Shown here: piece by piece, positions 914 to 37,240 of the stretch
Position numbering within the stretch: position 1 is the first letter of the stretch
How the letters are laid out: every line of letters begins with the position of its first letter
DNA from: Fragilaria crotonensis
Taxonomy: Eukaryota > Bacillariophyta > Fragilariophyceae > Fragilariales > Fragilariaceae
Assembly: GCA_022925895.1 (NCBI GenBank)
Contig: JAKSYS010000578.1
Span: 1 to 40,919 of the forward strand
Direction of reading: 5' to 3'
DNA length: 40,919 nt
The notes under the pieces: model-generated
Seen by the model: only the letters and a program-made list of their open reading frames with translations
Database searches by the model: none
Told to the model about the DNA's origin: nothing
Position numbers and translations under genes: made by a program

Positions 914-3900
914 CTAGGTTCTGGTGGTGTCATCTTCATGATTGACACGCACGGTATAAAACTTCGCATACTCACCCTTCACCCAAATGGGAGTTCCGTT
1001 CTCGTCCAAAACAGGAACCATCTGAGGTGGCATCCACTGTGATCTCTTTTCTTTCCTTGCCTTTTCGGCTCTGAACTTGAACGCACCTCCTGCTAGTGTC
1101 TGCACTTGACCGTACGTATCGATTGACATGGTGTCATTCTCAAGGAGAGCTTCACATGCCTCGCAATGTGTCACAACTGCATGCGATGCTTCCTGAAGCA
1201 CAGAATCGAGGAAAGCATTCATCGTCTCGCATTGTTCGAAAAATGGGAGATCAGGGTCTGGGAAGGGAAGGGCTTGAGATTTGGCGATCACTTTGATTAC
1301 CTTGAGACACAATTTCAGCCAAGGTGCAATCTTCACAATCCATTCTCGAGGCATGTCGATCTCAAAGGGTTCGTGACCTGGTTCACCCGAGCGAGCACAG
1401 ATAAAGACAACGCTGTACTTTTTCGTGAACCACTTCTTGGGATGTTCCAGGATTGTCTTATCAACCACGACGGGCGTCATCCAAACCAGATTCGGGCACT
1501 CCTTGAACTGATCGGCTGACAGATGCGCTAACGCTGCCAATGACCGGTCCAATCCTTTCTTCAGTCCCATTAGCACCCGCAGCTGTTTCTGCAACTGTGC
1601 TCTATTCTCGTCGAATCCCACTTTGACATCATCTTTGATGCCATCCAAATCGAATTTCAGCCCGGAAACTTGGGACTGCAGACCAGCCACTTGCCCAAAA
1701 AGATGTGATTGGAAACCAACAAATCGCGATTCAAATTGGAGGAAATAATCGTCCCATGTCTTCCTCTCAACACGTTTTTCAACATACCGATTGTACGTCT
1801 CAGTAGGAATGTGTTGACAAAGATCCTTGTCGTGAATTTTGCTGGAGCACTCCTTGATCAGGCACAAAAGTTGGCATCCGCTGTCATCAGCAAGCTTGTC
1901 CACAATACAAGGTGGGCACAGCGCGTGCCCTTCACTGCATGTTATATCTGTACGATAGTTGTTACAAACATCGCAGAATGAACCGCTGTCTATTGCAGTC
2001 ACAGCCTCAGAATTCTGAACGCCTGCGTTGGTATTCAAACGGATTGCATCTCTGAGCTCATCGAGGAGTTCCTTCGTGCTCAACCGTTTTTTAGAAGAGG
2101 GATGCATGCACTTAATAGCAGCCTTGCACACGAGTTCAAGAGACGCTGCATTCCAGATGATAGTGGGATCTGCATCACGTTTGAGCTTTCCCCATCCATC
2201 GTCAATCCGTAGATGATCCTCATCCTGTACGTAGGTCTGAAACACATCATGGAATTCAGTGTTAGAGGGCATCGATTGCCCTCTATTCAAGCGTCCTAAA
2301 ATTAGCTCAACCATCACAACACCAATGGAATACACATCGTAAGCAGCTTTATACGGACCCTTCTTCCACAGATACTCTGGACAAACATATCCACTAGTTC
2401 CAGATGGTGGCCCATCAGGTTTGCTCCAGTAAGAAACTGTCAACGATCCCGGAGTAGCACTGTAGTTGTCGTCCGGTACACATTTGGCAAGTCCACAATC
2501 AATCAGTCGGGGGGTGAAATCGTCAGCCAGACAAATGTTGGCACTCTTGATATCGCGATGAAACACTTTCCAACCATCGCCTGTCACCTTTTTGCAACCG
2601 CCAGTATGCAAGAAGTGAACCGCTCGCACCAACTGGAACATGATGGACAATCGAATGTCTGACGACAGGCGCGCTCTGTTGCCGACATCAGTAAAGAAGC
2701 CAGCGAGGGAGCCATTTGCGGCGTATTCATACACCAAGCACTGCTGTGCACGGTTGGCATTTAAACTGTAGCCATACAAGACAATAATGTTGGGATGCCG
2801 GCATTTCTTAAGCGTCTGGATATAATGTACAAATTGAGCGGTAGGAAGACGTAATTGGTCGTGACAAGGGAGATCATTGCTGCTCCTTATCAGAGACAAT
2901 TCAATACAGAACTTACCGAAAGCTCCGTCCGAAAGGTTCTACGAATTTCTTTGATATTGGCATCATCACATTTAGTAGGTCTAATCATTTTCACTGCAAA
3001 CTTTTTAGGCAGACGACTATCTTCCGCCAAAAACACGTCGCCAAAGGCGCCCGATCCAAGTTTGTGGTCCTTCTTGATGCATCGCTCTACGTATGCCAAG
3101 GAGAGTTCCACAGGTTCAGCGGAGGTTGTATTCATTACATGGTGAAGCTTCCTTCGGAATTGTTCAATCTTGAAGCTTGAAAAAGCATTCAAAGAACCCC
3201 AAATACTAGCGCAAGCGAGAGCCATCCATGTCCAGCCAATCTTTTTTCGACGGTCACGCTTTATATGCAACTCCAAGAGAAGTGCGACATCTTCTTTTTT
3301 CTGCCTGCGAGCGCAATCAAGAGCTGTGGCGCCATGGTTATTCTTGATATTCATATCCACTCCATCGTGCTCCAATAATGCACGAACCACTTCCACATGG
3401 CCATCGTAGCTCGCCAAGGTGAGAGCGGTGTTGCCATTGTTATTCTGAATATTCACATCCACTCCATGATGCTTCAATAAAGCACGAGCCACTTCCAAAT
3501 GACCCTTCCAGCTGGCCAAGATGAGAGCTGTGTCGCCATGGTTGGTATTCTTGATATTCACATCCACCCGCACGTGATTCAATAAGGCACGAACCACTTC
3601 CACATGGCCCATTTCGCTTGCCAAGGTGAGAGCTGTGGCGCCATGGTTATTCTTGACATTCACATCCACTCGACGGTGATTCATCAACGCATGAACCAAT
3701 TCCACACGGCCACTCAAGCTTGCCAAAAGTAGAGCTGCATCGCCATTATTATTCTTCGTATTCACATCCACACCTGCGTGATTCAATATAGCACGAACCA
3801 CTTCCACGTGGCCCTTCTCGATTGCTATGATGAGAGCTGTGGCGCCATGGTCATTCTTGATATTCACATCCACTCCATCGTGCTTCAGTAACGCACGAAC

Positions 3901-5166
3901 CACTTCCAAACGGCCCTTTTTACTTGCGGCGATGAGAGCTGCTACGCCAAAGTCATTCTTGGTATTCACATCGACTCCATCGTGAACCAATAAAAAACGA
4001 ACCACTTCCAAATGGCCAAACATGCTTGCACGGATAAGAGCTGTGTAACCATATTCATCTTTGGCATTCACATTTGCCCCACTTTTCAAAAGGTCCCGAA
4101 CCTTGTCGAGATTTCCATCTCTGGCTTTGCGAACCAAATCAACGCTTAGATCACGCTCTTCCTCCTTGAAAGACGTTTGCTCTTCCTTCTTGTGAAGCCT
4201 ATCAGGTTCCACGTGTTCCACCAAGGGACGTGCCGAAATGTCCCAATCACGTGATGCGGCGCCATGATTGTCCGTGATGGGCACATTCACCCCTTGGTGA
4301 TTCAATAACGCGCGAACAACCATCCAACATCCCCAAGCGCAAAAACAAATGAGAGCTGTTTGTGTCCAGCCAATATTGTTTCGACGTTCACGATTTATGT
4401 GTTTTTCTTCCAAAGCTTTTAAACGTGCAGCATCGTCACGACGCTTTTCAAGTTCTTTTTCCAACGCATCCTTGAGTCGCGCCTGCGATTCCTCTATGCG
4501 CCGCTTCGCTTTTTCCTCCTCCTCACGACGCTTCCGCTCTTCCTCCTCATAACGCTTTACAAATTCTTTTTCCAATGCATTTAAACGTTCAGCCTTCTCC
4601 TTGAGACGCGCCTGCGCTTCCACATTTAAACGTTCAACCTCCTCCTTGAGACGCGCCTGCGCTTCCACAATTAAACGTTCAGCCTCCTTGAGACGCGCCT
4701 GCGCTTCCTCCTCTCGACGCTTCCGCTCTTCCTCCTCACGACGCTTCCGCTCTTCCTCCTTGCGAAGCTTCTCCCGTTCCATGTGTTCCTGCAAGAGACG
4801 TGCAACATCACCTTTGTTCTCCTTGCGAGCAACGTCAAGAGCTGTTTCACCATCTTCATTCTGGATATTCGCATCCACTCCGTTGTGCATTAATAAAGCA
4901 CGAACCACTTCCAATTGGCCCTTATAGCTTGCACCGCTGAGAGCAGTCCAGCCTTTAATACCCTGGATATTCACATCAACTCCATCGTGATCCAATAGAG
5001 CACGAACCACTTCCAAATGGTCATTCCAGCTTGCCACGATGAGAGCTGTCCAGCCATATTTACCTTTGGCATTCACATTTGCCCCTCTTCGCAAAAGGTC
5101 ACGAACCTCGTCGAGATTTCCATCTCTGGCATTGTACATCAATTCATAATCAAGAGTCCAAGTCAT
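914..5166 (-). CDS. Gene A: ankyrin-coiled coil-kinase-RING-like protein, two exons, intact
   Basis: Exons are 5166-2917 (750 codons) and 2815-914 (633 codons plus stop), giving 1383 residues. The start is fixed by an in-frame TAG four codons upstream and by alignment with gene E. Domains: four ankyrin repeats (about 1-128); Glu/Arg coiled coil (128-260); a degenerate Trp-rich ankyrin-like unit (264-300); nine more ankyrin repeats (344-635); a hydrophobic stretch (643-662); kinase from 703. Kinase motifs seen are GSGAFG (704-709), AVK lysine 726, helix-C Glu 748, HRDIKSAN (836-843), DCG in place of DFG (856-858) and a CPEY motif in place of APE. A C-x2-C-x8-C-x2-GH-x2-C-x2-C motif with three later cysteines (1031-1073) looks RING-like. 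A C-terminal domain (about 1168-1383) is shared by all paralogs. The family is known to phosphorylate Ser/Thr; ligand and partner roles for the ankyrin part are inferred. Membrane attachment at 643-662 is possible. Confidence 0.85.
2816..2916 (-). other. Phase-0 intron of gene A (101 bp)
   Basis: The donor GTAAGT follows the codons for Glu-Leu-Ser at the end of kinase helix C. The acceptor TCCAG precedes the codons for Thr-Leu-Lys. Removing 101 bp joins the kinase N-lobe to the conserved HPNIIVLYGY strand. Genes C and E have an intron at the same codon, which supports all three calls. Confidence 0.88.
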
Positions 5167-5168
5167 AG

Positions 5169-5185
5169 TGGAGTACTACCGGTAG
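5169..5185. repeat. 17-bp direct repeat, 5' border of gene A
   Basis: The sequence tggagtactaccggtag begins 3 bp outside the gene A start codon, in the same orientation as the copy at 895-911. It contains the perfect palindrome ctaccggtag. Gene E has a 15/17 match at the same place (37243-37259). Confidence 0.7.
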
Positions 5186-6344: not shown

Positions 6345-7110
6345 AATGCGCACCATTGTATGGATTGTATTGGTCTGTATCAAGATTTGGACTACCGCGT
6401 TGATTGTATTTCGACTTTCTAGGAATGCATTCCCAAAGAGTCCATCTCGGTACCATGGAAAGGAAAGACGTTCTTCCGAGTACAGCTGTGAGGACTGCCA
6501 TTCAGCTGTTTGGTCCAACAATACGACTTCGTTTCCGATGTTATGGAACAACGTCATAAGCAACAATACACAGGAAGTTCTCGTTCATGGCGACTTGCCG
6601 CATCTGATACACAACAAGGAAAGTGACGATAAGTACGACGACGACGATGATGATGACGCACTCGGAGATTGATAATGACAAGGAGGGCCGTAAGAACGTT
6701 CTGTCAATACCGCCAAGGGCCATTCCGATATCTCGTGTGTCAGTGCGATGGAGAAGACCTATACAGCAGCAAGTCTATTGTTGGTGTAGACGATCGTAGT
6801 TGTAAAAACACTCGGAATGACTTTCCATTTCCAAGGCCTTGGGATGAATCCTACTAGATTCGCTGTAGCTCTCGATGCAGAATGAAAAGAAATCAAAAAC
6901 AATAATCCCACTACCTTGGGGTCGCACTTCTATACTCTAGTACATGACCATAACTGATGCATCTAATCAACCAGATCGACTTGCAATTGCTTTTTGAATG
7001 CCGGTATACATTTTTCATTGAAAGGTTTGCATTCTTCCGTTGGCATCAAATCAGGGTTTGACACCTTAGGGAGCGCATTGCGGATTGACCTACGAAATCG
7101 ATTCTCCGTT
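6345..7110. repeat. Dispersed repeat Y, copy 1
   Basis: It is about 765 bp and similar to Y2 (17745-18480) along its length and to Y3 (33053-33520) over 6475-6950. Shared blocks include tccgagtacagctgt, ggttctcgttcatggcgact and ggtgtagacgatcgtagtt. Both strands keep short open stretches that are partly conserved, such as NKQEVLVHGDLPHP-like on plus and TTIVYTNRDLLLYRSTPS-like on minus, but each copy has its own breaks. It may be a decayed gene or a non-autonomous repeat. A GAC/GAT microsatellite occupies about 6635-6658. Confidence 0.6.
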
Positions 7111-8040: not shown

Positions 8041-8048
8041 CGATTTTT

Positions 8049-8504: not shown

Positions 8505-8527
8505 TTTCTTTCAGGTTTCTGTAAAGG

Positions 8528-11244
8528 ATGTCCCCAATCCTACCCGACCGCATCCAATTCAGTAGCTTGGAAAGAGCAAATGCCTCACACCCGCTGCCTC
8601 CAAGGACTCGTCAACATGTTGACTTCACCACATCATCCTCCTCGCAATTTTTTTCGGCTGTTCCTGGACCTGTGAATACTAAGAAGCGTAAGCTTGCTTC
8701 TGACCAAGCAAACGAAACTCAGATAGAGGAAACAACCCTACTAGTTCCTTGTTGATCCTCACCGCTCAAGAACCGTCGCTGCAATTATCCTCGTATTGGG
8801 AATCTGGCGATTCCAGAAAGCTCTTCGCACCAAAGTTGTATTATGGCACTGATTGCGATGTTCGGAAAGCTGTCATGGATCGAATTGAAAAATTGGAGAT
8901 GGTTAACAGTATTGCTGCAGATTGGAGGACACTTGTAGATGGTGGCGATCAAGAGGATTTGTGTTCAGAACACGACATCTTTATGATCAGGCATCGGAGC
9001 ATGTACCTTGCATGTGCCTTGCGAAAATTTGTCGACGAGGCGAGCAAAACATCGAGGTGGACATGGCAGCAATGTATCGAGTACTCAATTGGATTGATGA
9101 ATGATGTCGGGTTGAGCTACTCCCATTGGCGACCACTGGCAAGGTGGCACAGACGACTGGCCTACAGCCCGAAAGGCACCTTTATCAAATCACCTGTACC
9201 CAAAATTGCTTGCCACCGTTCTTTATCGAGAATCCAGACGCAATGGATGCTTTCAGGAAACATGGAGTAAGCATTCTGAAAGAACTGTCGGTGGAAAGAA
9301 TGCACACGTACGTGCTTGAAACATTGATTCCAACGATGATGGCAAGAGTTGAGCGAGGCATCGAGGAGACTTCTGACAATTCGCAAGAAAATGACCTTGT
9401 TACACCGCCAGTGCTGGAGCTATCGCAAGAGACGAAGAGCTTCCTTCAAAGTTACCGTTTATCTAAGATATCCATTGCCACAGTTGTTCGATGGATGCAT
9501 GCCACGGGTTTCAGATACAAAAACCGCAGCAAGCATTATTTTGTTGATGGACACGAGAAGGCGGAAACACTTGCTTATCGGCCTGTCTTCACAAAGCGAT
9601 ACATCGCTCATGAAGTTCAAGCTCATCGGTGGGTTCAGCTTAGTCTTGTAGCTTCTAAAATTCTAGAGGCACAAGATTCGGTTGCAAAACTGTGGCTATC
9701 ATTACGTAGATCCTATCAGTAATGTTGAGATGGTGGAATATCACGTTGACGCCATTTCGAGTGAAGCAGTGGCGGATATAGTAGGGACGGCGTTCTTTGG
9801 AGCACACTTAAGCATACGACGGGACACAAGCAAGCCAATAGTCATCTTTGTCGGGCAGGACGAGGCCATCTTTAAGCAGTTCTCGTTTCTTTCAAAGATG
9901 TGGACAGGTCCCAAAGGCGAGCGTCCTCTCCTCCCCAAGGATGAAGGAGCGGGGTGATGATATCATCATTTATCTGCAGGGAATATGGTTTGATCCAAGA
10001 ATTAGATCAAAACACACTAGACTCAGTGAACGAGATACGGCAAGGAACGAGATATGCCGATGAAGAAGCAGCAATGGAAGTCTTAGGCTCTTCCCTTAAG
10101 CCCCTTCTATTAGCTGGCAAGTCGCCATTCCTAACATACTTCGACTACAGGGAAAACAAAGAGGGCTACTGGGATTATAATCACATGGTGCTACAGTTCG
10201 AAGATGTCGTTGATTGTCTAAAGGTTATGCATCCACAGGTCCATTTTGTATTTCTATTCGATCATTCATCAGGACACGCAAAGCAGCGCCCCGATGGTCT
10301 CAATGCAGCTAAAATGAATAGATCATTTGGTGGAAAATGCCCAGTCATGCACCCGACTGTCATTGAAAGGGAATCCGGCTTCCTCGGTCCATATGCACGT
10401 ATCCTGGAGCCCGGCCAAACTCAGCGATTGACATTTACCGAAGTTGATGTTGGACCTTTCTGGATGATACCAAACGAACGCATTCTCAGTCGCCTTGATC
10501 AAGTCGATGGCGATCCGTCAAATGTCTCAAGAAACAAATCCGAATTAATCCTCGAACTACGTCGTCAAGGCATTAACACCAAAGGAAAGAACAAAAAAGA
10601 ACTGATCGCTATTTGTATCGACAAAAATATCCCGATCAATCGCGAAGTTCTAAAATAAAGGAAGGTTGGGTGGGAAAGGCAAAGGTTTGCTTCAGGTGTT
10701 GTGGGAGCGAGGATATATTGATATGAACAAGCTGTCAAGCTATACACTTACCGGCAGGAAGGATGAGCTCGAAACGTGGACTTGAGCTTGAGTTTGCGCC
10801 ATCTAATGGCGATGTGTTCTGATTTCTTGAACGAAGAAAGCATGATGGAGCATGTCGGAGCAAAATTGGCGTGGAAGTCATGCTAACCCCAAGTGTCATG
10901 CCGAAATAGCAGGTGAAGGCGTTGAGTACATGTGGGCATGCAGCAAAGGTGCATACCGCAATCTCACCTTAAAAGAAAAGAAAGGGAAGGAAAATTTCAT
11001 GGCAGGCGTTAGATATTCTTTGTCGGAGAAAGTCCTTTCAATTGAACGCATTCGAAAATTTGCGAAACGAGCTCGTCAATATCTTCTTGCTTACCACGCC
11101 ATTGATAGCGGGCAAGTCAGTGCTGAAATACAGCAAGACTGTGCAAAGTATGGTCCTGTTGCATTGGAGAAACTGCTTCGGGAGTTCAAAACACATCGAT
11201 GTGTAATGGACTTCGATTTCAAGTTTGTGATGAATCCAGATTAG
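8528..11244 (+). pseudogene. Large DDE-type transposase-like gene, multiply frameshifted
   Basis: Homology runs through several frames: about 8528-8755, 8749-9190, 9190-9690, 9682-9953, 9954-10655, then short pieces to 11244. An N-terminal NTKKRKLAS stretch could be a nuclear signal. Later motifs are PPFFIENPD, FVDGHEKAETLAYR, GYHYVDP and GQDEAIF (first acidic residue), FLFDHSSGHAK (second), a SAP-like stretch at about 10530-10640 (KSELILELRRQGINTKGK), LQVLWERGYID, and CHAEIAGEGVEY (candidate catalytic Glu). This order matches a large transposase-like family I know from diatoms, oomycetes and fungi; I cannot give a superfamily name. Most breaks fit single-base losses in G or C runs (near 9213, 9953, 10675, 10772, 10868, 10890), so decay and sequencing error are both possible. 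No terminal inverted repeats were found. Confidence 0.7.
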
Positions 11245-12751: not shown

Positions 12752-12957
12752 GAGAGGATGCGATGAATTGCAGTGTGAAAAACTTCTGATTCTTGTGTTG
12801 AGAGCTCTGTGCGTTTCGAAAGAAGCTGGTATGTTTTTGTCCGTAGACTTGAACGTGAACGGAAATTTGAGGTTCTGGGTATCATGACCAAATTCTGGTC
12901 AACCTCAATTTGAGTTTGACAAGAATTTGTGTTTTTGGGGATTTGACTGTCGCCCAT

Positions 12958-16784: not shown

Positions 16785-17110
16785 TCAGAGGCGGCTATTT
16801 GGTTCGATTACCTCAAGATACAATGTCATCCAAGGTCGTGCAGTCGTCGCAATCCATCCTTTTGGATCGTCGGATCCATACGATTCGTTGATGCACTTGT
16901 TGTTCGTGGGAGTGTGCACTTTTGAAGACGACGCTGAAATGTTTCCTTCGCTACTATTTGTGTGATGCATTTCTTGGGATTTCTCAAATCGTTCTTGAAC
17001 TACGGCATCATTCCTCATGGGAGTAGTCAACCAGAAGAGATGTGTCGGGCACCTCTTGAACTGAATCGTGGACAGTTGCGCCGATGCTACGTACCACGAC
17101 CGGTCAACAG
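16785..17110 (-). pseudogene. Diverged fragment of the kinase-gene C-terminal domain
   Basis: One minus-strand frame (17110 to the TGA at 16785) aligns with the C-terminal domain of genes A, C, D and E. It has DRS, then QLSTIQFKRCP (compare LSADQFKECP), a TTP motif and later DPKGWIATTARPWMTLYLEV (compare PREWIVKIAPWLKLCLKV). It stops early, at EPNSRL. Upstream, 17110-17440 keeps faint matches to the RING-like region (CTNCDIQF near 17420) with stops between. The DNA around 16800-16830 also resembles the gene A exon near 1300. It lies between an ankyrin pseudogene and repeat Y2, as gene D lies next to Y3. Confidence 0.6.
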
Positions 17111-18480: not shown

Positions 18481-18700
18481 TGCGATTCATTATAGAGTAA
18501 GAGTACTCGAGCATTCGTTTCCAACAAAGGCTGTCCTTGTCGAGGATGACATCAATGTAAGGCGGACGAGGAGCTTGGTGATCAGAAGTCAGAAGACGAA
18601 GTGACAGTGTTTCACCTTCGATTGTCAACTGGGAAACTTGAAAACATCATGATTACATAATTACACCACAACTACTACTATATATTGAACACAAAAAATC

Positions 18701-21700
18701 CTAAACTCGATAGTGATCCTGAAATTCACCCTTCACCCACATTATCGTCCCGTTCCGATCACAGACAGGAACCATCTGAGGTGGCTTCCACTGCGATCGC
18801 TTCTCTTTCTGTGCCTTCTCTGCAATAAGCTGGAACGAATCTCCCGCTAGTGTCTGCATCTGACCATATGAATCAATCGTCATAGTGCCACTCTCAAGGA
18901 GAGTCTCACAACGAGACAAGACAGCGTTCGCACCTTCTTCAATCACAGACTCGAGCAACGTCTTCATTTTTCCGCATTGGTCAAGAAATGAGAGATCAGG
19001 GATGGGAAAGGGAAGTCCCTGCGAACCGGCAGCCCCTTTCAGTGCCAAAAGGCACAATTTCAGCCAAGGTGCAATCTTTGTAATCCAACCTTTTGGCACC
19101 TCGATCTCAAAGGGTTCGTGACCTGGTTGACCTGAGTGTGCGCAAATGAAGACAACCTTGTATTTTTGCTTCAATGCGCTCCTGATCCAATTCTTGGGAT
19201 TTCCCAGGTCTTGCTTCTCAACCGAGATGGGTGCCACCCAAACGAGATTTGGGCACTCCTTGAACTGATTCGCAGCGAGCAACGACAATGCCGCCAATGA
19301 CCGTTCTAATCCGCTTGCCAACCTCTGAAGCATATCCTGCTGCTCCTGCAGCAATTGGTTATTGCGTTCAACGCCAACTCGGACCGCCCTCATCCCGTGG
19401 AGAATTTCGTCCAACTTGGCATGCTCGACTTTCTTCTCAATGTACCGATTGTACGTCTCAACAGATACGCGTCCAAAAAGATCTTCGTCTCGAAAAGGTT
19501 GACTCGAGCACCGGTCGATCAGGCACGATACGTGGTATCCGTTGCTATGCCCGAGCGCGTTCCCGATGCAACCTGAGCACAAAGGATGCCCTTCGCTACA
19601 AGCCATATCCGTACGGCATTGGTTGCAAATAATACAGAATGGGCGGTTGTCTCCTGCGCTGTTAGTCTCGGGGCTTGGTGTTTCTGTGATGGCCGTGCGA
19701 AGCTCTTCAAGGAGCTCGCTGGTGCTCAACCTTGTTTTAGAGGTAGGGGTTATGCACCGAATTGCAGCTTTGCAAACTAATCGAAAAGACCTTGGATCCC
19801 AGATGATGGAGGGGTCTGCATCTTGTTCAAGTATCTTCCACCCATCGCCAATGAGCTCACCATCCTCATCCTTAACATACTTCTCAAACACATCGGTGAA
19901 TTGCGTTCCATTCCTTGTCGACTGCCCATTAATCAAGCACCTAAAATTAATTCAACCATGACAATGCCAATAGAATACACATCAAAGGCGGCAATATAGG
20001 GACAGGACTTCCCCATACCCTTCTTCAAGACATACTCCGGGCACATATACCCACGGGTTCCAAATGCGTGGCCGCCAGTTGTACTCCTTACTGATGGTAT
20101 GACAGAGCCTGGAACAATGTTGAGGTTCTCGTCAGGAACAAACTTGGCAAGCCCACAATCAATGAGCCGGGCTGTGAAATCTTCCGCCAGACAAATGTTC
20201 GCACTCTTGATATCGCGATGAAAGACTTTCCAACCCTCGCAACCACCAGAGTGCAAGAAGTTGACTGCTCTCGCCACTTCGAACATGATTGACAGCCGAA
20301 TATCTGTCGTGAGGCGAGCTCGATTGCCGTCATCTCTCAAGAAACCATCAAGGGAACCGTTGGCTGCATACTCATACACCAAACACTGATCATTAAGACT
20401 GGCATTTAAATTGTAGCCGTACAAGACAATGATGTTGGGATGATGAAATCTCTTGAGTGTCTGCGGAAGATTTGTACACATGCTCTTATGTAAGAAATCC
20501 AGAATATAGGGAGGGTCGTTCTACCATACGCCAATGTTTTGAGAGCACATTTCAGAACTTACCGACAGTTCCCGCTGGAAGCTTTTCCGAATTTCGTTAA
20601 TTGTATCTTGATCACATTGAGCAAGTTTGACCTTTTTGACTGCAAACTTTTTGGGGAGGTGACTATCCTCGGCCAAAAAAGCATCGCCAAAGGCACCTGA
20701 TCCAAGTGTGCGTTTGGTGATGCAATGTTCAATGTACTGATGAGAGAGTTCAACAGGATCATGATCCTTGGAGGTGCTACTCATCACATTGAACAGCTTG
20801 CTTCGGTCCTTTTCAATCGCAGCGTCATCGCTGGGAGGGCTGTTCTCGTTTCGACGAGGGGGGTTGCCTGTCACTCGCTGCCCCGCTACACTTGCTGCTG
20901 CAGGCCTCCTTCTGTTCAACAACTCTTGTCGACGGCGCTTCTCTTCCATGGCCTGCTTCCGTTCATCATCCATGCGACGCCTCCGCTCTTCCTCCTCACG
21001 TCGCTTCTGTTCTTCTTCCTCAAGACGATTCCTCTCGTCCTCCATGTGTTTTTTCAAGAGACGTACGATATCATCGTGCTTTTGTTGGAGCGCTCTATCC
21101 AGAGGTGTTAACCCACCATCACCAGTACATTGGAGGTTTAAATCCACCTTGTTGTTTTGGAGCAACGCCCGGACGACTTCCACATGGCCATTTTGACTCG
21201 CAACGTACAGGGCTGTTGCACCATCATCAGTACGTTGGAGATTCACATTCACCTTGTTGTTTTGGAGCAACTCGCGGACGACTTCCAAATCGCCATTTTG
21301 ACTCGCAACGTACAGGGCTGTTGCACCATCATCAGTACGTTGGAGATTCACATTCACCTTGTTGTTTTGGAGCAACTCGCGGACGACTTCCACATGGCCA
21401 TTATGACTCGCAATCATAAGGGGTGTTGCACCATCAGTCATTCGTAGATTCACATCCGTCTTGTTGTTTTGGAGCAACAAGCGGACGACTTCCACATGGC
21501 CATTACAACTCGCAACGTAAAGGGGTGTAAAACCACCAGTCATTTGGAGATTCGCATCCACCTTTTTGTTTTGGAGCAACAAGCGGACGACTTCCAAATG
21601 GCCATTACGACTCGCGGCGTAAAGGGCTGTTTGACCATCAGTCATTTGGAGATTCACATCCGTCTTGTTGTTTTGGAGCAACAGGCGGACGACTTCCACA

Positions 21701-23437
21701 TGGCCATAACAACTCGCCATGAAAAGGGCAGTTACACCATCATCATCACGTTGACCATTCACATCCGTCTTGTTGTTTTGGAGCAACAAGCGGACGACTT
21801 CCACATGGCCATTACGACTCGCGGCGTAAAGGGCTGTTTGACCATCAGTCCTTTGGAGATTCACATCCAATTTGTTGTTTTGGAGCAACTCGCGGACGAC
21901 TTCCACATGCCCATTTTGACACGCTATATAAAGGGCTGTTGCACCATTAGTGTTAGGGAGATTCACATCCACCTTGTTGTTTCGGAGCAACTCGCGGACG
22001 ACTTCCAGTTGTCCATTTTGACTCGCAACGTAAAGGGCTGTTGTACCATCATCAGTGCGTCGGAGATTCACATCCACCTTGTTGTTTTGGAGCAACGCCC
22101 GGACGACTTCCACATGGCCAAATTCACTCGCAATGTAAAGGGCTGTATAACCACCAGTCATTTGGAGATTTACATCCACCTTGTTGTTTCGGAGCAACTC
22201 GCGAACGACTTCCACATGGCCCTCTTGACTCGCAATGTAAAGGGCTGTTGTACCATCATTTGTACGTTGGAGATTCACATCCACTTTGTTGTTTTGGAGC
22301 AACGCGCGGACGATTTCCACATGGCCCTTTTCTCGCAATGTAAGGGCTGTATAACCACCAGTCTTTTGAGATTCACATCCACCTTGTTGTTTTGGAGCAA
22401 CGCGCGGACAACTTCAAATGGCCAAATTCACTCGCAATGTAAAGCGCTGTTGTACCACCATCATCAGTACGTTGGAGATTCACATCCACCTTATTGTTTT
22501 GGAGCAACTCGCGGACGACTTCCAGTTGTCCATTTTGACTCGCAACGTATAGGGCTGTTGTACCATCATCAGTGCGTCGGAGATTCACATCCACCTTGTT
22601 GTTTTGGAGCAACGCCCGGACGACTTCCACATGGCCAAATTCACTCGCAATGTAAAGGGCTGTATAACCACCAGTCATTTGGAGATTTACATCCACCTTG
22701 TTGTTTCGGAGCAACTTGCGAACGACTTCCACATGGCCCTCTTGACTCGCAGTGTAAAGGGCTGTTGTACCATCATTTGTACGTTGGAGATTCACATCCA
22801 CCTTGTTGTTTTGGAGCAACGCGCGGACGATTTCCACATGGCCCTTTTCACTCGCAATGTAAAGGGCTGTATAACCACCAGTCTTTTGGAGATTCACATC
22901 CACCTTGTTGTTTTGGAGCAACGCGCGGACAACTTCCAAATGGCCAAATTCACTCGCAATGTAAAGCGCTGTTGTACCACCATCATCAGTACGTTGGAGA
23001 TTCACATCCACCTTATTGTTTTGGAGCAACTCGCGGACGACTTCCACATGGCCATTTTGACTCGCCATGTAAAGGGCTGTTGAACCACAAGTATGTTGGA
23101 GATTCACATCCACCTTGTTGTTTCGGAGCAACTCGCGGACGACTTCCAGTTGTCCATTTTGACTCGCAACGTAAAGGGCTGTTGTACCATCATCAGTGCG
23201 TCGGAGATTCACATCCACCTTGTTGTTTTGGAGCAACGCCCGGACGACTTCCACATGGCCAAATTCACTCGCAACGTAAAGGGCAGTTACACCAATATCA
23301 GTACGTTGAGCATTCACATTGGCTCCCGCTCGTAACAGGTCACGAACCTCTTGGAGATTACCATCAAAGGCACTGTTAATCAATTTCCGATCATTCGCAC
23401 TCGACGGCTCCTTCCTTTTCGAAAAGATAGATCGCAT
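18701..23437 (-). CDS. Gene C: kinase-RING-like protein with about 23 ankyrin repeats; frame broken by small deletions
   Basis: Exons are 23437-20563 and 20460-18701. About 23 ankyrin units end in DVNL-type turns. A Glu/Arg coil with RRQELLNRRRPAAA follows, then the kinase: GSGAFGDAF (Ala replaces the usual Val), AVKKVK, HRDIKSAN, DCG, GTRGYMCPEY. The RING-like motif (CIICNQCRTDMACSEGHPLC) and the shared C-terminal domain complete it. Exon 1 lacks five bases near 22333-22412 compared with the matching array at 22840-22945 (one CA, one A, one G, one C). With these counted, exon 1 is exactly 960 codons. Exon 2 lacks one base near 19940; with it, exon 2 is exactly 587 codons, the same as gene E. 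The losses are either recent mutations or assembly errors. Unlike gene A it shows no hydrophobic stretch before the kinase. Confidence 0.75.
20461..20562 (-). other. Phase-0 intron of gene C (102 bp)
   Basis: Donor GTAAGT after Glu-Leu-Ser codons and acceptor CGCAG before Thr-Leu-Lys codons. The position is identical to that of the gene A and gene E introns. The intron sequence itself is not conserved between genes. Confidence 0.85.
22041..23260. repeat. Higher-order repeat inside the gene C ankyrin array
   Basis: The word ttgtaccatcatcagtgcgt recurs at 22041, 22558 and 23182. Spacings are 517 bp (522 with the five lost bases, five ankyrin units) and 624 bp (six units). The segments are almost identical at DNA level, unlike the more diverged units at 20521-22000. 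The array therefore grew recently by duplicating blocks of 5-6 repeats. All spacings are multiples of three once the losses are counted. Confidence 0.75.
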
Positions 23438-26620: not shown

Positions 26621-26674
26621 AACTTTATTAATGCTATTAACTTTATTAATGCTGTTAACTTTATTAATGCTGCG
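26621..26674 (+). repeat. 18-bp tandem repeat (3 units) inside the MetH copy
   Basis: Units begin at 26621, 26639 and 26657, each aactttattaatgct plus three variable bases. They encode NFINA-type hexapeptides where MetH normally has a single FINA segment before KIIKE. The expansion keeps the frame. Confidence 0.85.
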
Positions 26675-26970
26675 AAGATAATTAAGGAAGAATGTCCGTA
26701 GTATGTGAAGATTTCTGCTGGTATCAGCAACTTGTCGTTCGGCTTCCGCGGCGTGACAACGATTCGCGAATCGATTCACTCCGTGTTCTTACACCATGTC
26801 ATCTTGGAGGCTGGTATGGACGTGGGTATAGTTAATGCGTTGGAGTTGCTTAGCATTGATGAGCTTGACCCTGAATTGAGAGAAGCCAGCGAGAACGTCG
26901 TGTTGAACAAGATGGAGAATGCGACAGAAGTTATGATAGATTTGACTTGTGAGTCAGATTTTGCTGCTCG

Positions 26971-27020
26971 CATGCACAGAAACTCACCAAGCAAGCATGC
27001 ACAGAAACTCACCAAGCAAA
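26971..27020 (+). repeat. 25-bp tandem duplication at the end of the MetH copy
   Basis: The unit catgcacagaaactcaccaa plus gcaag occurs at 26971-26995 and again at 26996-27020 with one difference. It lies where similarity to MetH ends and the frame runs into a foreign tail before a TAA. Confidence 0.8.
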
Positions 27021-27039
27021 AGAAAGTCACATAAAGGCA

Positions 27040-30046: not shown

Positions 30047-31071
30047 TCATTACCGTGGCATGCCGTGTGTTGTGTTGAATGTCATCAATTATTCTTTGCA
30101 ATCATCGCTGTGCATACTATCATACATACTCCGAGTACTGCATATAATGTACCCCTGAAACGCCAAATAGGGTCTACCGCAAGGGAGATTGGGGACACCG
30201 AATGGAGCAGATTGTGAGACATCCATGCCATCAAGAACGCAAGCAAACGCAACACGGCGAACAAACAAAATTGCCGGTGTCGTTTGGAAGGTGATGTGCT
30301 ATCACTCCTTGTAGCGTCCCACCTGATACGGTTGGACATTTGGCATGTCTCCTTCTCCGCTGACAATATCCTGTGTGTTGGAGCGTGGAGCACTGAGGAC
30401 AGCGTACACGAGAATTCGTGTCTTGGATCTCAAGAAGCAGCATGGATCGGTGTCATTCTCGATATGAGTGCTGCAGCGGACGACACATTACACTCGAGCC
30501 TTGGCACGCGGTGCGTGTGTGTTGTTTAGCAGAAGAGATACCCGAAGGATTCCCAACGCCATTCGTGACTTTCTCATCACATCATCTTCAGAGATCGTTT
30601 CCTCGGGCTGTTTTGCTGAAAGAGATGCCCATCGAGATGTCAAGGACTGAAGGACCGTCCACACCATTCGTGATTTTCTCATGGCATCATCGCTGGAGAT
30701 TGCGAAAACTAATCGTCTTCTCGAGGAGGACCTATACTGTGTCGAGGCCAAGTCACGATCCGTCAAATATGGAGCGTGCACTCACGTAATCGAAGTATCT
30801 AGTAGGCATCGTCCTTCCTTGTCGAACTTGTCGAAGGCATTGACTCTGTCTCAGTCGTCTGCGCCACTGTCATGTACAATGTAAACTGCTTACTTTTGTT
30901 AATCTCGCACTTGGCAATTAGCGTCGCCTTATACCTTTATGCCCCTTTTCTATTTGCATGTACACATGAATGAAATGAATAATTTTAATATATAACATGC
31001 AGATACTTTAGGGCGCCAGGCTATTCTCAGGCAAATATCATGGGCATACAACTGGAGTACTTCCGGTAGTA
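30047..31071. repeat. Repeat X3: 3' flank of gene D, duplicate of X1
   Basis: From 30157 (gaaacgccaaatagggtcta) it follows X1 almost base for base up to the gene D stop, with small indels. Upstream, 30047-30156 shares the cattcattaccg and tcattattctttgc type blocks with the left end of X2. It includes a copy of the 17-bp border repeat at 31053-31069. Confidence 0.8.
31053..31069. repeat. 17-bp border repeat next to the gene D stop
   Basis: Identical to 895-911 (tggagtacttccggtag). It ends 2 bp before the complement of the gene D stop codon, the same offset as in gene A. Confidence 0.7.
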
Positions 31072-33144
31072 CTAGGTACTAGTGGTGTCATCCTCATGAT
31101 TGACACGCACTCCATAATGCTTCTTCGCACAGTCACCCGTCACCCAAATGGTAGTTCCGTTCTGGTCCACAACAGGAACCATCTTAGGTGGCATCCACAG
31201 ATGCCTTCTCTTGTCTTTCTGTGCCTTTTCTGCGATTAACTCGTATGCAGCTCCTGTCAGTTCATGCATTTTGCCGCATGCTTCGATTGGCGTGGTGTCG
31301 TCATTCTCAAGGAAAGCCTGAAAACTGTCCAAGACGGCACCCGCTGCTTCGTCAATCACAGAATCAAGAAACCCCGCCAATTTTTCGCATTGGTCAAGAA
31401 TTGGGATTGGAGGGATTGGGAGGGGAACACCATAAGCTTCGACAACCTTTTTGATTACCCAAAGACACACTTTCAGCCACGGTGCAACCTTCACGATCCA
31501 TCCTCGAGGCATCTCGATCTCAAAGGGTTCGTGCCCTGGCACACCCGAGTGTGCACAGATGAAGACGACGCTGTATTTTTGCAGCACTTTGTCCTTGCTC
31601 CACCCCATTGGATCTTTCAGGAACTTCTCATCAAAAACCAAGGGTGTCATCAAAACCAGATTCGGGCATTTCTTAAACTGATTTGCTGACAGTAGCGCTA
31701 ACGCTGCCAATGACCGGTCTAATCCTTTTGCCAACCTCTGTAGCATGTGCTGCTGCTTCTGTAGCAACTCGTTTGAATGTTCAACACCAACATGGACCAC
31801 GTATATATCAGATCTCACCAGGTACACTTGGCGGAGACATTCGTCCACCTTCGTCTGGTCGGCGCGTTGTTCAACGTAACGTTTGTACGTCTCAACAGGA
31901 ATGCGTCCATAAAGATCCTTGTCGTGGATTTTGCTTGGGCAATCCTGAATCAGGCATACAAGTTGGCATCCGTTCTCATCACAGAGCTTATCCACAATAC
32001 AAGTTGTGCACAGCGCATGCCCTTTGCTGCACTTGAAATCTGAACGATATCTGTGGCAAGTTTCACAGTATGCATATTCATATCGGCCGGTGTTCGTATT
32101 GCGCCATATGCTGACGTGGCTTGCAAAGATTGCGAAGATCGTGACTCCGATGATTAGGAAATTGGCGACCCGTAAATCTGGAGCAAAACAAACGGAAATC
32201 GTCAGCAAAAAAGTGGCAAGCACTGCGACGCTTCGCACTCCATCAGGTTGTCGAATGCCTTCGTCGGCATTCAAATTGATTGCATCTCTGAGCTTATCGA
32301 GGAGTTCCTTCGTGCTCAACCTTTTGTCAGGCAGAGGAGCCATGCAGGCAATAGCAGCCTTGCATAAAAGTTGAAGAGACGCTGGATTCCAGATGATGGT
32401 GGGATCGGCATCATCCATGAGCTTTTTCCATCCTTTGCGAATCGGCCGATCACGCCCGTCCTTGACATATCGACGATATGCATTCTCGAGTTGCACCCCG
32501 TTGGTCGTCGGAAGCCCTCCCGTCACGCATCCCACAATGAGCTCAACCAAGACAACGCCAACGGAAAACACGTCATAGGCAGCGATATAGGGCCACGAAG
32601 CGCTTTCCGATTTCATCTTGACATACTCTGGGCACATGTATCCGCGAGTTCCAAATGCAAACGCGCCGTTTGTGCTCTGCAAAGACCCCGGAGTAGCCCT
32701 GGAGTTGTCGTCAGGTACAAATTTGGCCAGCCCGCAATCAATCAGCCGGGGGGTAAAATCTTCCGCCAGACAAATATTGGCACTCTTGATATCGCGATGA
32801 AACACTTTCCAACTTTTGCCTGCCACCTTGCACCCGCCCGTGTGTAAGAAGTGCACTGCTCTCACCAATTTGAACATGATGGACAATCGAGTATCTGCCG
32901 ACAGGCGGGCTCTGTTGCCGTCGTCAGTAAAGAAGCCAGCGAGGGAGCCGTTAGCGGCATGTTCGTACACCAAACACTGCTGTGCACTGTTGGCATTTAA
33001 ACTGTAGCCATACAAGACAACAATGTTTGGATGCCGGAATCTCTTCAGACGCTCCGAGTACAGCTGTAAGGACCGCCATTCAGCTGTTGGGTCCAACAAT
33101 ACGGCTTTGTTTCCGATGTTATGGAACAACATCATAAGCAACAA
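31072..33144 (-). CDS. Gene D: partial kinase-RING-like paralog with a two-helix membrane hairpin, lacking ankyrin and kinase N-lobe
   Basis: An uninterrupted frame of 690 codons. Residues 32-690 are homologous to exon 2 of gene A: HPNIVVLYGY, HRDIKSAN (116-123), DCG (136-138), GTRGYMCPEY, the RING-like motif (360-402) and the C-terminal domain. Residues 305-321 and 327-347 form two hydrophobic segments absent from the paralogs, a likely membrane hairpin between kinase and RING-like motif. Residues 1-31, including MLLMMLFHNIGN, come from repeat Y3, so translation from this ATG is uncertain. The glycine loop, the ATP-binding lysine and all ankyrin repeats are missing, and no exon 1 is found before gene E. 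It is a pseudogene, a pseudokinase, or uses an exon I cannot see. The frame is fully open, so loss was recent or selection persists. Confidence 0.7.
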   Translation of the reverse strand: MLLMMLFHNIGNKAVLLDPTAEWRSLQLYSERLKRFRHPNIVVLYGYSLNANSAQQCLVYEHAANGSLAGFFTDDGNRARLSADTRLSIMFKLVRAVHFLHTGGCKVAGKSWKVFHRDIKSANICLAEDFTPRLIDCGLAKFVPDDNSRATPGSLQSTNGAFAFGTRGYMCPEYVKMKSESASWPYIAAYDVFSVGVVLVELIVGCVTGGLPTTNGVQLENAYRRYVKDGRDRPIRKGWKKLMDDADPTIIWNPASLQLLCKAAIACMAPLPDKRLSTKELLDKLRDAINLNADEGIRQPDGVRSVAVLATFLLTISVCFAPDLRVANFLIIGVTIFAIFASHVSIWRNTNTGRYEYAYCETCHRYRSDFKCSKGHALCTTCIVDKLCDENGCQLVCLIQDCPSKIHDKDLYGRIPVETYKRYVEQRADQTKVDECLRQVYLVRSDIYVVHVGVEHSNELLQKQQHMLQRLAKGLDRSLAALALLSANQFKKCPNLVLMTPLVFDEKFLKDPMGWSKDKVLQKYSVVFICAHSGVPGHEPFEIEMPRGWIVKVAPWLKVCLWVIKKVVEAYGVPLPIPPIPILDQCEKLAGFLDSVIDEAAGAVLDSFQAFLENDDTTPIEACGKMHELTGAAYELIAEKAQKDKRRHLWMPPKMVPVVDQNGTTIWVTGDCAKKHYGVRVNHEDDTTST

Positions 33145-33520
33145 TAAACAGGAGGTTCTCGTTCATGGCGACTTGCCGCATCCGATAGACTACAAGGAAC
33201 GTGACGATAAGTACGACGAAGACAATCATGATGAAATGCACTGGAAGATTGATCATGACAAAAAGGGATGTACGTACGTTCTGTTGACACTGCCAAAGGC
33301 CGATCCCAATAGCTGGTGTGACATTGCGATGGAGTTGACCTGTACAGCAGCAAGTCTCTGTTGGTGTAGACGATGGTAGTTGTACAAACACTCGGAACGA
33401 CGTTGCGTTTCCAAGGGCTTGGGATGAATCCTACTAGATTCGCTGTTGCTCCCGATGCAGAATGAAAACGAAGCAATAATCCCACTACGTTGGGATCGCA
33501 CTACCATACTCAAGTACTTG
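33053..33520. repeat. Dispersed repeat Y, copy 3, fused to the gene D kinase exon
   Basis: Similarity to Y1 begins exactly at tccgagtacagctgt (33053; 6475 in Y1), next to the first kinase codon of gene D, and ends near 33520 after caagtac. Left of 33053 the sequence is kinase exon; in Y1 and Y2 the repeat continues instead. This marks a recombination junction. Confidence 0.65.
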
Positions 33521-33845
33521 TCTCTTGTCAGTTTGACCCATCATGCCATCACACACGTACACCATACTTGTGTGCCATGTACTACAAGTATCGTACTACT
33601 ACTAACAAATACAAGCTTCAAGCTACTAATACTACGAGGTAGTTCTCGACGTGCATTCGAAGTAATGGAGTCTGGAATACGAGAATGTTGTGTGTGCTTT
33701 AGGTACTGATTATGATGAGTACACGATGACTACAGTTTGATGTTAGATATATATATGATACACCAATTCAACGAAACGCATCTCCAAACTTGAACGAATG
33801 ATATGCATACAACAGCTACTATGTACTAAGTTAACACGAACAATC
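33521..33845. other. Spacer between repeat Y3 and gene E
   Basis: It is rich in tac/gtac words (33515-33650), with tatatatatga near 33747. The last 20 bp before gene E resemble the 3' flank of gene C. No gene. Confidence 0.4.
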
Positions 33846-36800
33846 CTAAACTCGATAGCGATCCTGAAATTCACCCTTTACCCACATGATCGTCCCGTTT
33901 CGATCACAGACAGGAACCATCTGAGGTGGCTTCCACTGCGATCGCTTCTCTTTCTGTGCCTTCTCTGCAATAAGCTGGAACGAATCTCCCGCTAGTGTCT
34001 GCATCTGACCATATGTATCAATCGTCATAGTGCCACTCTCAAGGAGAGTCTCACAACGAGACAAGACAGCGTTCGCACCTTCTTCAATCACAGACTCGAG
34101 CAATGTCTTCATTTTTCCGCATTGGTCAAGAAATGAGAGATCAGGGATAGGAAGGGAAGTCCTGCGAACCGGCAACCTTTCAGTGCCAATAGGCACAATT
34201 TCAGCCAAGTGCAATCTTTGTTATCCATCCTTTTGGCACCTCGATCTCAAAGGGTTCGTGACCTGGTTGACCTGAGTGTGCGCAAATGAAGACAACCTTG
34301 TATTTTGCTTCAATGCGCTCCTGATCCACTTCTTGGGATTTCCCAGGTCTTGCTTCTCAACCGAGATGGGTGTCACCCAAACGAGATTTGGGCACTCCTT
34401 AAACTGATTCGCAGCGAGCAACGACAATGCCGCCAATGACCGTTCTAATCCGCTAGCCAACCTCTGAAGCATCTCCTGCTGCTCCTGCAGCAATTGGTTA
34501 TGCGTTCAACGCCAACTCGGACCGCCCTCATCCCGTGGAGAATTTCGTCCAACTTGGCATGTTCGACTTTCTTCTCAATGTACCGATTGTACGTCTCAAC
34601 AGATACGCGTCCAAAAAGATCTTCGTCTCGAAAGGTTGACTCGAGCACCGGTCGATCAGGCACGATACGTGGTATCCGGTGCTATGACCAAGCGCGTTCC
34701 CGATGCAACCTGAGCATAAAGGATGCCCTTCGCTACAAGCCATATCCGTACGGTATTGGTTGCAAATGATACAGAATGGGCGGTTGTCTCCTGCGCTGTT
34801 AGTCTCGGGGTTTGGTGTTTCTGTGATGGCCGTGCGAAGCTCTTCAAGGAGCTCGCTGGTGCTCAACCTTGTTTTGGAGGAAGGGGTAATACACCGAATA
34901 GCAGTTTTGCAAACTAATCGCAAAGACCTTGGATCCCAGATGATGGAGGGGTCTGCATCACGTTCAAGGATCTTCCATCCATCGACAATAAGGTCATCGT
35001 CCTCATCCTTGACGTACTTCTCAAAAACATCGTCGAATTGCGTTCCGTTCCTTGTCGACTGTCCACCAATCAAGCATCCCAAAATTAGTTCAACCATGAC
35101 GATGCCAATAGAATACACATCAAAGGCGGCAATGTAGGGACACGACCTCCCCCTACTCTTCTTCTTGACGTACTCTGGGCACATATACCCGGGGGTTCCG
35201 AATGCTGGGCCGCCAGTTGTACTCCTTACCGATGGTATGACAGACCCAGGAACGATATTGGGGTTCTCGTCAGGAACAAACTTGGCAAGCCCACAGTCAA
35301 TGAGCCGGGCTGTAAAATCTTCCGCCAGACAAATGTTCGCACTCTTGATATCACGATGAAACACTTTCCAACCCTCGCAACCACCAGAGTGCAAGAAATT
35401 GACTGCTCTCGCCACTTCGAACATGATTGACAGCCGAATGTCTGCCGTGAGGCGGGCTCGATTGCCGTCATCTCTCAAGAAACCATCGAGGGAGCCGTTG
35501 GCGGCATATTCATACACCAAAAACTGATCATAAAGACTGGCATTTAAATTGTAGCCGTACAAAACAATGATGTTGGGATGATGAAATCTCTTTAGTGTCT
35601 GGCAGAATTGCGCTCTCTTGTTAGAGGGGGGGGGGAGGGTCATTCTTCCAGACGAGGCAGCAACGTACCGAAAGTTCCCGCTGGAAGCTTTTCCGAATTT
35701 CGTTAATTGTATCTTGATCACATTGAGCAAGCTTGACCTTTTTGACTGCAAACTTTTTGGGGAGATGACTATCCTCGGCCAAAAAAACATCGCCAAAGGC
35801 ACCTGATCCAAGTGTGCGGTTGGTGATGCAATGTTCAATGTACTGATGAGAGAGTTCAACAGGATCATGATCCTTGGAGGTGCTACTCATCACCTTGAAC
35901 AGCTTGCTTCGGTCTTTTTCAATCGCGGCGTCATCGTTGGAAGGGCTGTTTTCGTTTCGACGAGGGGGGTTGCCTGTCACTCGCTGACCAGCCACACTTG
36001 CTGCTGCAGGCCTTCTATTAAGCAACTCTTGTCGACGGCGCTTCTCTTCCATGGCCTGCCTACGTTCATAATCCTTGCGACGACTCCGCTCTTCCTCCTC
36101 ACGACGCCTCCTCTCTTCCTCCTCAAGACGATTCCTCTCTTCCTCCTCATGTTTCTCCAAGAGACGTACGATGTCATCGTTGTTGTACTTGCGAGCGTTA
36201 TCAAGAGCTGCGTTGCCATCATTGTCCTTCATATTCACATCCACCCCTACGTGATTCAATAAAGCACGAACCACTTCCACATGGCCCCGATGGATTGCCT
36301 GGATGAGAGCTGTGGCGCCATGGTCATTCTTGATATTCACGTCCACTCCATTGTGCTTCAATAGAGCACGAACCACTTCCAAATGGCCGAGATAGGTCGC
36401 GTCGATCAGGGCAGTGGTGCCCCAATTATTCTTCATATTCACATCCACTTCATCATGATTCAATAACGCAAGAACAACTTCCATTTTGCCTGAAAAGCTT
36501 GCCCGGATGAGGGCTGTGAAGCCATCTTCATCCTTGGCATTCACATCCACTCCGTTGTGCACTAATAAAGCACGAACCACTTCCGTATGGCCATTATTGC
36601 TTGCCAAGATGAGAGCTGTGAAGCCATGATTATTCTGGATATTCACATCTACTCCGTTGTGCATTAATAAAGCACGAACCACTTCCAAATGGCCATTAAT
36701 GCTAGCATGGATGACAGCTGGGTTGCCATATTGACCCTTGATATTCACATCCACTCCATCGTGATTCAATAAAGCACGAACCACTTCCAAATGACCCTTT

Positions 36801-37240
36801 TTGCTTGCCAAGATGAGAGCTGTGTTGCCATCATTATTCTGGATATTCACATCCACTCCATCGTGATTCAATATAACACGAACCACTTCCGAATGGAAAC
36901 TCTCGCTCGCTTTGATGAGAGCTGTATCGCCAACATTATCCTTGATATTCACATCCACTCCATTGTGATTCAATAAAGCACGAACCACTTCCACAAAGCC
37001 ATACCAGCTTGCCCTGTAGAGAGCTGTGTCGCCCCATCTATCTTTGGCATTCACATCCACTCCATCATGATTTAATAACACACGAACCAATTCCAAACGA
37101 CCCCCAGTGCTTGCCCAGATGAGAGCTGTCCAGCCATCTTCATCTTTGGCATTCACGTTTGCCCCTCTTTGCAAGAGGTCACGAACCTTGTCGAGATATC
37201 CATCTCTGGCATTTTTAATTAATTCTTGATCAAGAGTCAT
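33846..37240 (-). CDS. Gene E: ankyrin-kinase-RING-like protein, frame broken by homopolymer deletions near the 3' end
   Basis: Exons are 37240-35669 (524 codons) and 35598-33846. The ATG at 37240 aligns with the gene A start; an in-frame Met 21 codons upstream lies in the conserved flank and is less likely. Eleven ankyrin units of the gene A type (NHDGVDVNIK) precede a Glu/Arg coil with RRQELLNRRPAAA of the gene C type, then GSGAFGDVF, AVKKVK, HRDIKSAN, DCG, the RING-like motif and the C-terminal domain. Against gene C, exon 2 lacks eight bases at 34150-34640, all in runs (AAA, CCC, CCCC twice, GG, TTTTT, TT, AAAA). Adding eight gives exactly 587 codons, as in gene C. The rest of the gene is clean. 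Sequencing error is likely, a young pseudogene possible. The gene is a mosaic of A and C types. Confidence 0.75.
35599..35668 (-). other. Phase-0 intron of gene E (70 bp)
   Basis: Donor GTACGT after Glu-Leu-Ser codons and acceptor TGCCAG before Thr-Leu-Lys codons, the same position as in genes A and C but shorter. It contains a run of C residues on the minus strand (35629-35637 as G on plus). Confidence 0.82.

Follow-up and report, generated by a model that had tools for sequence, protein, structure and literature searches.

Ankyrin, kinase and RING-like proteins of the diatom Fragilaria crotonensis: a candidate sensor family with exchanged repeat arrays

The window analysed here is the whole 40,919-nucleotide (nt) contig JAKSYS010000578.1 (label C534) of Fragilaria crotonensis, one contig of a 62.1-Mb, 881-contig genome; other C-numbers refer to contigs of the same genome. 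In line with a diatom host, a light-harvesting protein of this genome lies nearest, among solved structures, to a fucoxanthin-chlorophyll protein (Fcpb7, E 5e-95), and the Rubisco large chain can be aligned over 490 residues with solved large chains; the best chains belong to diatoms such as Chaetoceros and Phaeodactylum. Four minus-strand loci of this window (A, C, D and E) belong to a family whose members join an ankyrin array, a protein kinase, a RING-like domain and a C-terminal domain. By sequence comparison, arrays and signalling halves have been recombined among paralogs of this family, a finding that is new here. We hold it about an even bet (roughly 0.5) that the loci represent a large, fast-turning diatom family of ankyrin/receptor-like kinase/RING-like signalling proteins with the sensor mechanism proposed below. 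The architecture, the conservation of catalytic and zinc-type residues, the size of the family, the mosaics and the pattern of constraint are read from the sequence itself. To our knowledge, the molecular basis of diatom recognition of viruses, bacteria and parasites is largely open, and a clustered family with exchangeable arrays, constrained cores and fast surfaces would supply concrete candidate receptors. A kinase and a RING-like domain in one chain would couple phosphorylation with ubiquitylation in a single sensor.

Ten minus-strand frames of the window were scanned with Pfam (Ank_2 cut-off 27.3 bits), and domain profiles made from the sequences of the four window loci were run on the window and on the other loci. 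Four array frames scored 264, 408, 302 and 250 bits with Ank_2, which places them among the ankyrin-repeat proteins. Full arrays had Ank_2 expect values (E) of 1e-75 to 1e-124, and four frames matched the protein kinase model (E 6e-23 to 1e-26). In A, C and E the kinase N-lobe, a separate piece, scored about 20 bits each time, below the Pfam cut-off. The profiles gave one minus-strand order at the window loci, namely array, kinase N-lobe, kinase, RING-like domain and C-terminal domain, and the identical order at family loci elsewhere in the genome. The four loci and remnants named in the initial annotation, which was made from the window sequence alone, therefore had their domains where Pfam and the profiles placed them. 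Its repeat counts (4+9, about 23, 11 and none) fit the profile matches once end caps are included: 12 in A (3 + 1 degenerate + 8), 23 in C (two of them overlapping at a frame break), 10 in E and none in D.

The same annotation had described four large genes; all four loci were found, and only A was intact. Its two exons spliced to an unbroken frame of 1383 amino acids (aa), and an intron occupied the same phase-0 site in C (102 nt) and E (70 nt). As assembled, C was broken twice, by a single private frameshift in the signalling half and by a frame break within the array, and E had six private indels in its signalling half, every one frameshifting. D was a 696-aa open frame without an ankyrin match. 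It had been taken as an ankyrin-free variant of the array; a natural member of that kind was rejected because the kinase N-lobe is missing as well, and D therefore reads as a 5'-truncated copy.

The family extends well beyond the window. The C-terminal domain of A had 101 matching stretches in the genome (E ≤ 0.01), and its kinase-RING part had 126 (E ≤ 1e-5; 114 of 155 candidates scored), the weakest of which may be other kinases. Merging of matches within 900 nt on one strand gave about 92 loci on 41 contigs, a count in which D and E of the window form one locus and broken copies may appear twice. Among the 92 merged loci, 51 had both parts, 20 the kinase part only and 21 the C-terminal domain only; 72 were on 21 contigs bearing two or more. 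Twenty-eight distinct loci, including the four in the window, were read in detail, a sample skewed to loci with a C-terminal domain most like that of A. Eleven of these had the kinase, RING-like and C-terminal domains in one frame. In three loci (L017, L018 (C422) and L026) the N-lobe and kinase shared one open frame, with the intron-sized gap stop-free. Three broken loci (L028, L035 and L037) had at least two successive RING-like stretches, as if tandemly duplicated.

Residue conservation was counted on stretches that started near the profile start and reached 85% of the profile, with second copies of window loci and two duplicate loci left out. The N-lobe Lys was present in 12 of 12 stretches, and the Asp of the HRD motif and the Asp of the DCG motif in 20 of 20 kinase stretches each. 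The nearest kinases among solved structures were plant PBL2, SymRK and others, and animal IRAK1, IRAK4 and IRAK3. The kinase named in the initial annotation thus sits closest to plant receptor-like kinases, receptor-like cytoplasmic kinases (RLCK) and IRAK; by nearest kinase and catalytic residues it agrees with the IRAK/RLK-Pelle kinases of the tyrosine kinase-like (TKL) group, and by the DFG motif it does not.

The eight C3HC4 ligands of the RING-like domain were present, in order, in 25, 24, 25, 25, 25, 25, 25 and 25 of 25 stretches. Their spacing was that of a C3HC4 RING apart from the last pair, C-x4-C where C-x2-C is usual. Against PDB, the RING-like profile matched TRIM69 best (E 9e-4), followed by CBL, TRIM5, TRIM34 and TRAF6 (E 0.03-0.7); non-RING chains (GLI1, a ferredoxin) appeared from E 0.7 upward. 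With curated RING models, 12 members gave Sina_RING in eight (best E 0.029), zf-C3HC4_2 in three (0.14) and XB3/XBAT31 RING in two (0.025), and in single members a few non-RING zinc models scored about equal to the RING models. The RING-like motif of the initial annotation was thus borne out in its conserved ligand set and in best solved matches that are mostly RING ligases, at weak scores. A chance origin of the motifs was rejected, since they are kept across loci.

The C-terminal domain had no relative in Pfam or PDB. Five RING-like and C-terminal pieces searched against Pfam at E ≤ 10 gave one chance-level match in one piece (DUF7842, E 0.17), and the C-terminal domain gave no match in PDB at E ≤ 1. 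In IMG/VR 25 stretches matched two short patterns and in GTDB genomes there were 103 matches, and none was confirmed in either. A C-terminal motif of this kind may also occur in proteins from other eukaryotes.

Exchange of arrays between signalling halves was seen within the window, where paralogs were compared by blastn (rows >120 bits only). E 36180..33809 and C 21077..18668 formed a single block of 91.9% identity over 2415 nt that began in the last ankyrin repeat and extended to the gene end. Upstream (5') of this block there was no E-C row >120 bits; there the E array matched A at 72-80%, and its 5' part and flank at 78-82%. Similar combinations occurred elsewhere. In C409:41703 the array was of A/E type (80% identical to E) and the signalling half of C type (91% identical to C and 94% to E); the change-over fell in the charged segment, where the frame also breaks. 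C83:88943 had a C-type array (75%) and a half closer by identity to A (74%) and D (81%) than to C (70%), and C608 had an E-type array (83%) joined to a D-type half (88%). In 90-nt windows, A and the C210 gene were 87-100% identical from the array to about position 2550, then 82%, then 14-76%. Two other paralogs also dip near 2550, a variable stretch; the C83:73994 gene regains 76-91% downstream and the C210 gene does not, which makes a change-over within the kinase likely for the A/C210 pair. The three change-over points differ in place.

Array and kinase were in strong conflict in trees of 13 loci (C163 was omitted, its kinase sequence missing), for which groups were picked after the blastn comparisons. 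The array tree grouped C, C422 and C83d (support 100/100), a group that gave an approximately unbiased test probability (p-AU) of 2.5e-51 when forced on the kinase data. The kinase tree grouped C, C422, C409b and E (100/97.6), which gave p-AU 4e-6 when forced on the array data. Most remaining forks were unresolved. Swaps between paralogs, in blastn and in the trees, thus agree with the earlier proposal that the signalling half is conserved while the recognition half in front of it varies.

Pairwise omega, the ratio of nonsynonymous to synonymous change (dN/dS), was estimated by the Nei-Gojobori method for pairs within dS 0.02-1; the pairs are not independent. Median omega was 0.28 in the kinase (121 pairs), with 0.09-0.11 among C422, C409b and E. 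Values were 0.31 in the N-lobe (28 pairs), 0.45 in the RING-like domain (166 pairs, maximum 0.89) and 0.39 in the C-terminal domain (79 pairs, maximum 1.07). Positions 2, 3, 5, 13 and 14 of the repeat are varied in designed ankyrin proteins, and these were set, following that practice, as surface positions after the repeats had been inspected; core positions were chosen after the table of surface versus other positions. Removal of gapped or short units left 191 ankyrin units, 138 of them in matched pairs, giving 69 nearest pairs (in 40 of them both units came from a single locus or from the window). Surface omega was 1.09 (bootstrap 0.73-1.72) versus 0.54 elsewhere, and 1.01, 1.66 and 1.22 for pairs with ≤6, ≤10 and ≤14 differences; core omega was 0.11-0.17 depending on the cut-off. 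Surface dN over overall dS was 1.77 (1.36-2.26) versus 0.50 (0.42-0.61) at other positions; the surface rate was equalled by 2 of 20,000 random five-position sets.

With core omega low and surface omega about 1 or above, array cores appear to be kept while binding-face codons change freely, which fits diversification without proving it. Positive selection as a demonstrated result was dropped, as a class comparison cannot part it from relaxed constraint. The faster change expected of the ankyrin surface was found (omega 1.0-1.7, kinase median 0.28). The A and C210 arrays, at 87-100% identity per window and omega 0.37, indicate that arrays are not always variable. Low omega in kinase and ankyrin core, together with nearly invariant zinc-type and catalytic residues, indicates that members have been under selection.

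Several results weigh against a family of working sensors. The kinase motif was DCG, not the canonical DFG, in 20 of 20 stretches, with Asp and Gly kept. No curated RING model matched any of the 12 members better than E 0.025, short of significance, and the modelling proposed earlier for the RING-like and C-terminal domains gave no usable fold (three window sequences; predicted local distance difference test score, pLDDT, 37.2; predicted template modelling score, pTM, 0.25). In the window D is truncated, E broken and C frameshifted. Seventeen of the 28 loci lacked an unbroken signalling frame and one of the 11 unbroken ones is D, so a large share of the family may no longer function. Omega of the C-terminal domain reached 1.07 (D versus C608) and 0.88 (D versus C409:36332). 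Two of the mosaics, E and C409b, have broken frames, and an A-type set of A, E, C409b, C608 and C409a was rejected by both array (p-AU 0.034) and kinase data (7e-118). A surface omega of 1.09 (0.73-1.72) is equally what relaxed constraint yields, and the arrays of A and C210 are close to invariant (omega 0.37, 279 codons).

Much of this could be birth-and-death debris, in which tandem duplicates are mostly pseudogenes, mosaics are by-products of repeat recombination and surface change is neutral. The 11 unbroken signalling halves among 28 loci, the 20 kinase-only and 21 C-terminal-only merged loci and the six frameshifts of E fit such an origin. We consider it improbable given the low omega of the kinase (median 0.28 for 121 pairs, 0.09-0.11 within the group of C422, C409b and E), ankyrin core omega of 0.11-0.17 and nearly invariant zinc-type and catalytic residues.

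The candidate sensor family, as we propose it, would work as follows. A protein ligand would dock on the variable surface of the array, and binding would activate or cluster the IRAK/RLCK-type kinase, leading to phosphorylation of partners. The RING-like domain would recruit a ubiquitin-conjugating enzyme (E2) and ubiquitylate the bound protein or one downstream. New specificities would arise when arrays expand, when surface codons change and when recombination places an array on another signalling half. Ligand binding, kinase and ubiquitin-ligase (E3) activity and the sensing of invaders or non-self are thus predictions of the proposal. The design looks like a changeable sensor set. It is possible, though we would wager against it, that diatoms, nearly free of nucleotide-binding leucine-rich-repeat receptors (NLR), built their own receptor repertoire from ankyrin cassettes recombined onto a one-chain kinase/ubiquitin-ligase module.

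The proteins could instead be expanded endogenous kinase/E3 enzymes whose arrays select the cell's own substrates in quality control, the cell cycle or stress, array change then reflecting changing house clients. Ankyrin-RING ligases and ankyrin kinases elsewhere frequently act on endogenous partners. The ankyrin repeats of rice XB3, for example, bind the XA21 kinase (PMC3661601, available text), and the conserved A/C210 arrays (omega 0.37) point the same way. This seems rather unlikely to us, as family size, clustering, mosaics and a surface omega of about 1 or above seem excessive for stable clients. Recognition in mating, cell contact or symbiosis, and not in defence, would predict the same pattern of variable binding and conserved signalling, and is quite improbable in our estimate. 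Least probable is a role in frustule building: ankyrin-domain proteins (dAnks) are listed among diatom frustule-morphogenesis proteins in PMC11151724, while the available text of that paper mentions ankyrin-repeat proteins only, with no kinase, RING-like domain or array swapping.

If the loci are sensors, their closest counterparts may be, by analogy, the modular repeat-array receptors: brown algal LRR-ROCO (LRR, leucine-rich repeat), and XB3 with its plant receptor kinase. NLR receptors, as the initial annotation remarked, likewise have a variable half on a conserved signalling half; they also form a clustered, fast-evolving family. That likeness of pattern stood; the NLR label was rejected, since the output here is kinase and RING-like and a nucleotide-binding domain was not found. 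No NB-ARC or NACHT domain was present among the Pfam matches listed for the ten window frames (for one frame, the best 25 of 27 families), and among these matches there was likewise no ROC-COR core. The whole genome at E ≤ 0.001 had one NB-ARC and one weak NACHT match, neither on the window contig (G000:C394:36286-37077 and G000:C72:18804-19286).

Plant kinase-U-box proteins join a kinase to a ubiquitin-ligase domain, and RIPK4/ANKK1 and plant ankyrin (ILK) kinases join a kinase to ankyrin repeats. We know of none of these with all three parts together, nor of array swapping among them. PBL2, SymRK and IRAK, the nearest solved kinase domains, have DFG where DCG stands here, and their chains are not known to carry an ankyrin array or a RING. 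In brown algae, according to the available text of PMC11378527, LRR-ROCO (and NB-ARC-TPR; TPR, tetratricopeptide repeat) genes form a large stramenopile family with repeat shuffling, selected concave-face sites and many probable pseudogenes. The present family shares with LRR-ROCO the stramenopile host, the large size, the variable array on a conserved core, the repeat shuffling and the probable pseudogenes. The brown algal systems have LRR or TPR arrays with one LRR per exon and a ROC-COR GTPase or NB-ARC core (PMC11378527, same text), whereas here the ankyrin array lies in one exon (gene A), the output is kinase plus RING-like, and whole halves are recombined. Rice XB3 is an ankyrin-RING ligase that binds the receptor kinase XA21 in immunity (PMC3661601, available text). 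XB3/XBAT31 proteins resemble the present family in having an ankyrin array, a RING and a C-terminal tail and in the link to a receptor-type kinase; plants use two proteins where kinase and RING-like domain are here in one chain. With a kinase present and XB3/XBAT31 RING at best E 0.025, the loci fall outside the XB3 ankyrin-RING proteins. Ankyrin repeats occur in three kinases of the Phytophthora infestans kinome, with the word RING missing from the main text as available (PMC3019232), and ankyrin genes are abundant or enriched in two other diatoms (PMC8613185, PMC5859163, available text). The accessible portions of the open-licence literature yielded no account of a diatom family with ankyrin, kinase and RING domains. 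The general design, in which a conserved signalling half carries a variable repeat array, is known; the domain set, the unassigned C-terminal domain and the exchange of entire halves by recombination appear to be new.

Features of the family in the window are listed in Table 1.

Table 1. Family features in the 40,919-nt window.
Feature	Position	Strand	Basis
Gene A exon 1: short ankyrin array, charged segment, second array, kinase N-lobe (2917-3111)	2917..5166	-	Open frame, Ank_2 E 6.6e-80, splice donor, profiles
Gene A intron, 101 nt, GT-AG, phase 0, within kinase	2816..2916	-	Spliced frame
Gene A exon 2: kinase 2042-2815, RING-like 1766-1981, C-terminal domain 917-1555	914..2815	-	Pkinase E 1.4e-26, profiles, splice acceptor
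Ankyrin remnant, 173 aa, 116 bits	15168..15689	-	Ank_2 E 1.2e-33
Possible C-terminal-domain remnant, weak	16803..17105	-	Profile, 24 bits
Gene C array (about 23 units, QNNKVDVNLQ type), charged segment, N-lobe 20563-20754; frame break about 22370-22415	20563..23437	-	Pfam, profiles
Gene C kinase 19688-20460 (frameshift inside), RING-like 19421-19645, C-terminal domain 18704-19312	18701..20460	-	Pfam, profiles
Locus D kinase without N-lobe 32278-33051, RING-like 31855-32076, C-terminal domain 31075-31725	31072..33060	-	Pfam, profiles
Gene E array of A type (NHDGVDVNIK) and kinase N-lobe 35669-35860	35669..37240	-	Ank_2 E 1.4e-75; array and upstream like A
Last ankyrin repeat of E; E/C block ends inside at 36180 (junction of A-type array and C-type half)	36128..36230	-	blastn
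Gene E kinase 34825-35598, then RING-like and C-terminal domain, both frameshift-broken; 92% identical to C	33849..35598	-	Pfam, profiles, blastn

The charged segment of A exon 1 was coiled-coil-like by eye. A hydropathy scan flagged aa 270-288 of A, one segment of the C83:73994 gene and the kinase-RING interval in D and C608. In C83d, C422, C608 and D it also marked a helix of the kinase; the flags are therefore no proof of membrane segments, and the intracellular location given in the initial annotation is putative. A lone ankyrin-profile match at 40351 (minus strand), apart from the family genes, is probably due to chance.

The flanks 3' of A (193-492) and of D (30376-30675) were 93% identical, and L047 carried this element at 90% and 82%, which suggests that duplications carry their flanks. 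A 121-nt flanking repeat occurred three times beside family genes (6779-6899, 18155-18275 and 33359-33479). Rfam gave no match at gathering score in the window. Other genes of the window included a plus-strand run of open reading frames at 8704-10658, transposase-like by eye (four frames scanned in 8704-11244 had no Pfam match), and a minus-strand open reading frame at 12467-12898 matching DUF6818 (E 4e-9). Pieces of a methionine-synthase-like gene, a homocysteine S-methyltransferase end and a pterin-binding domain in successive frames, were found on the plus strand at 25791-27034.

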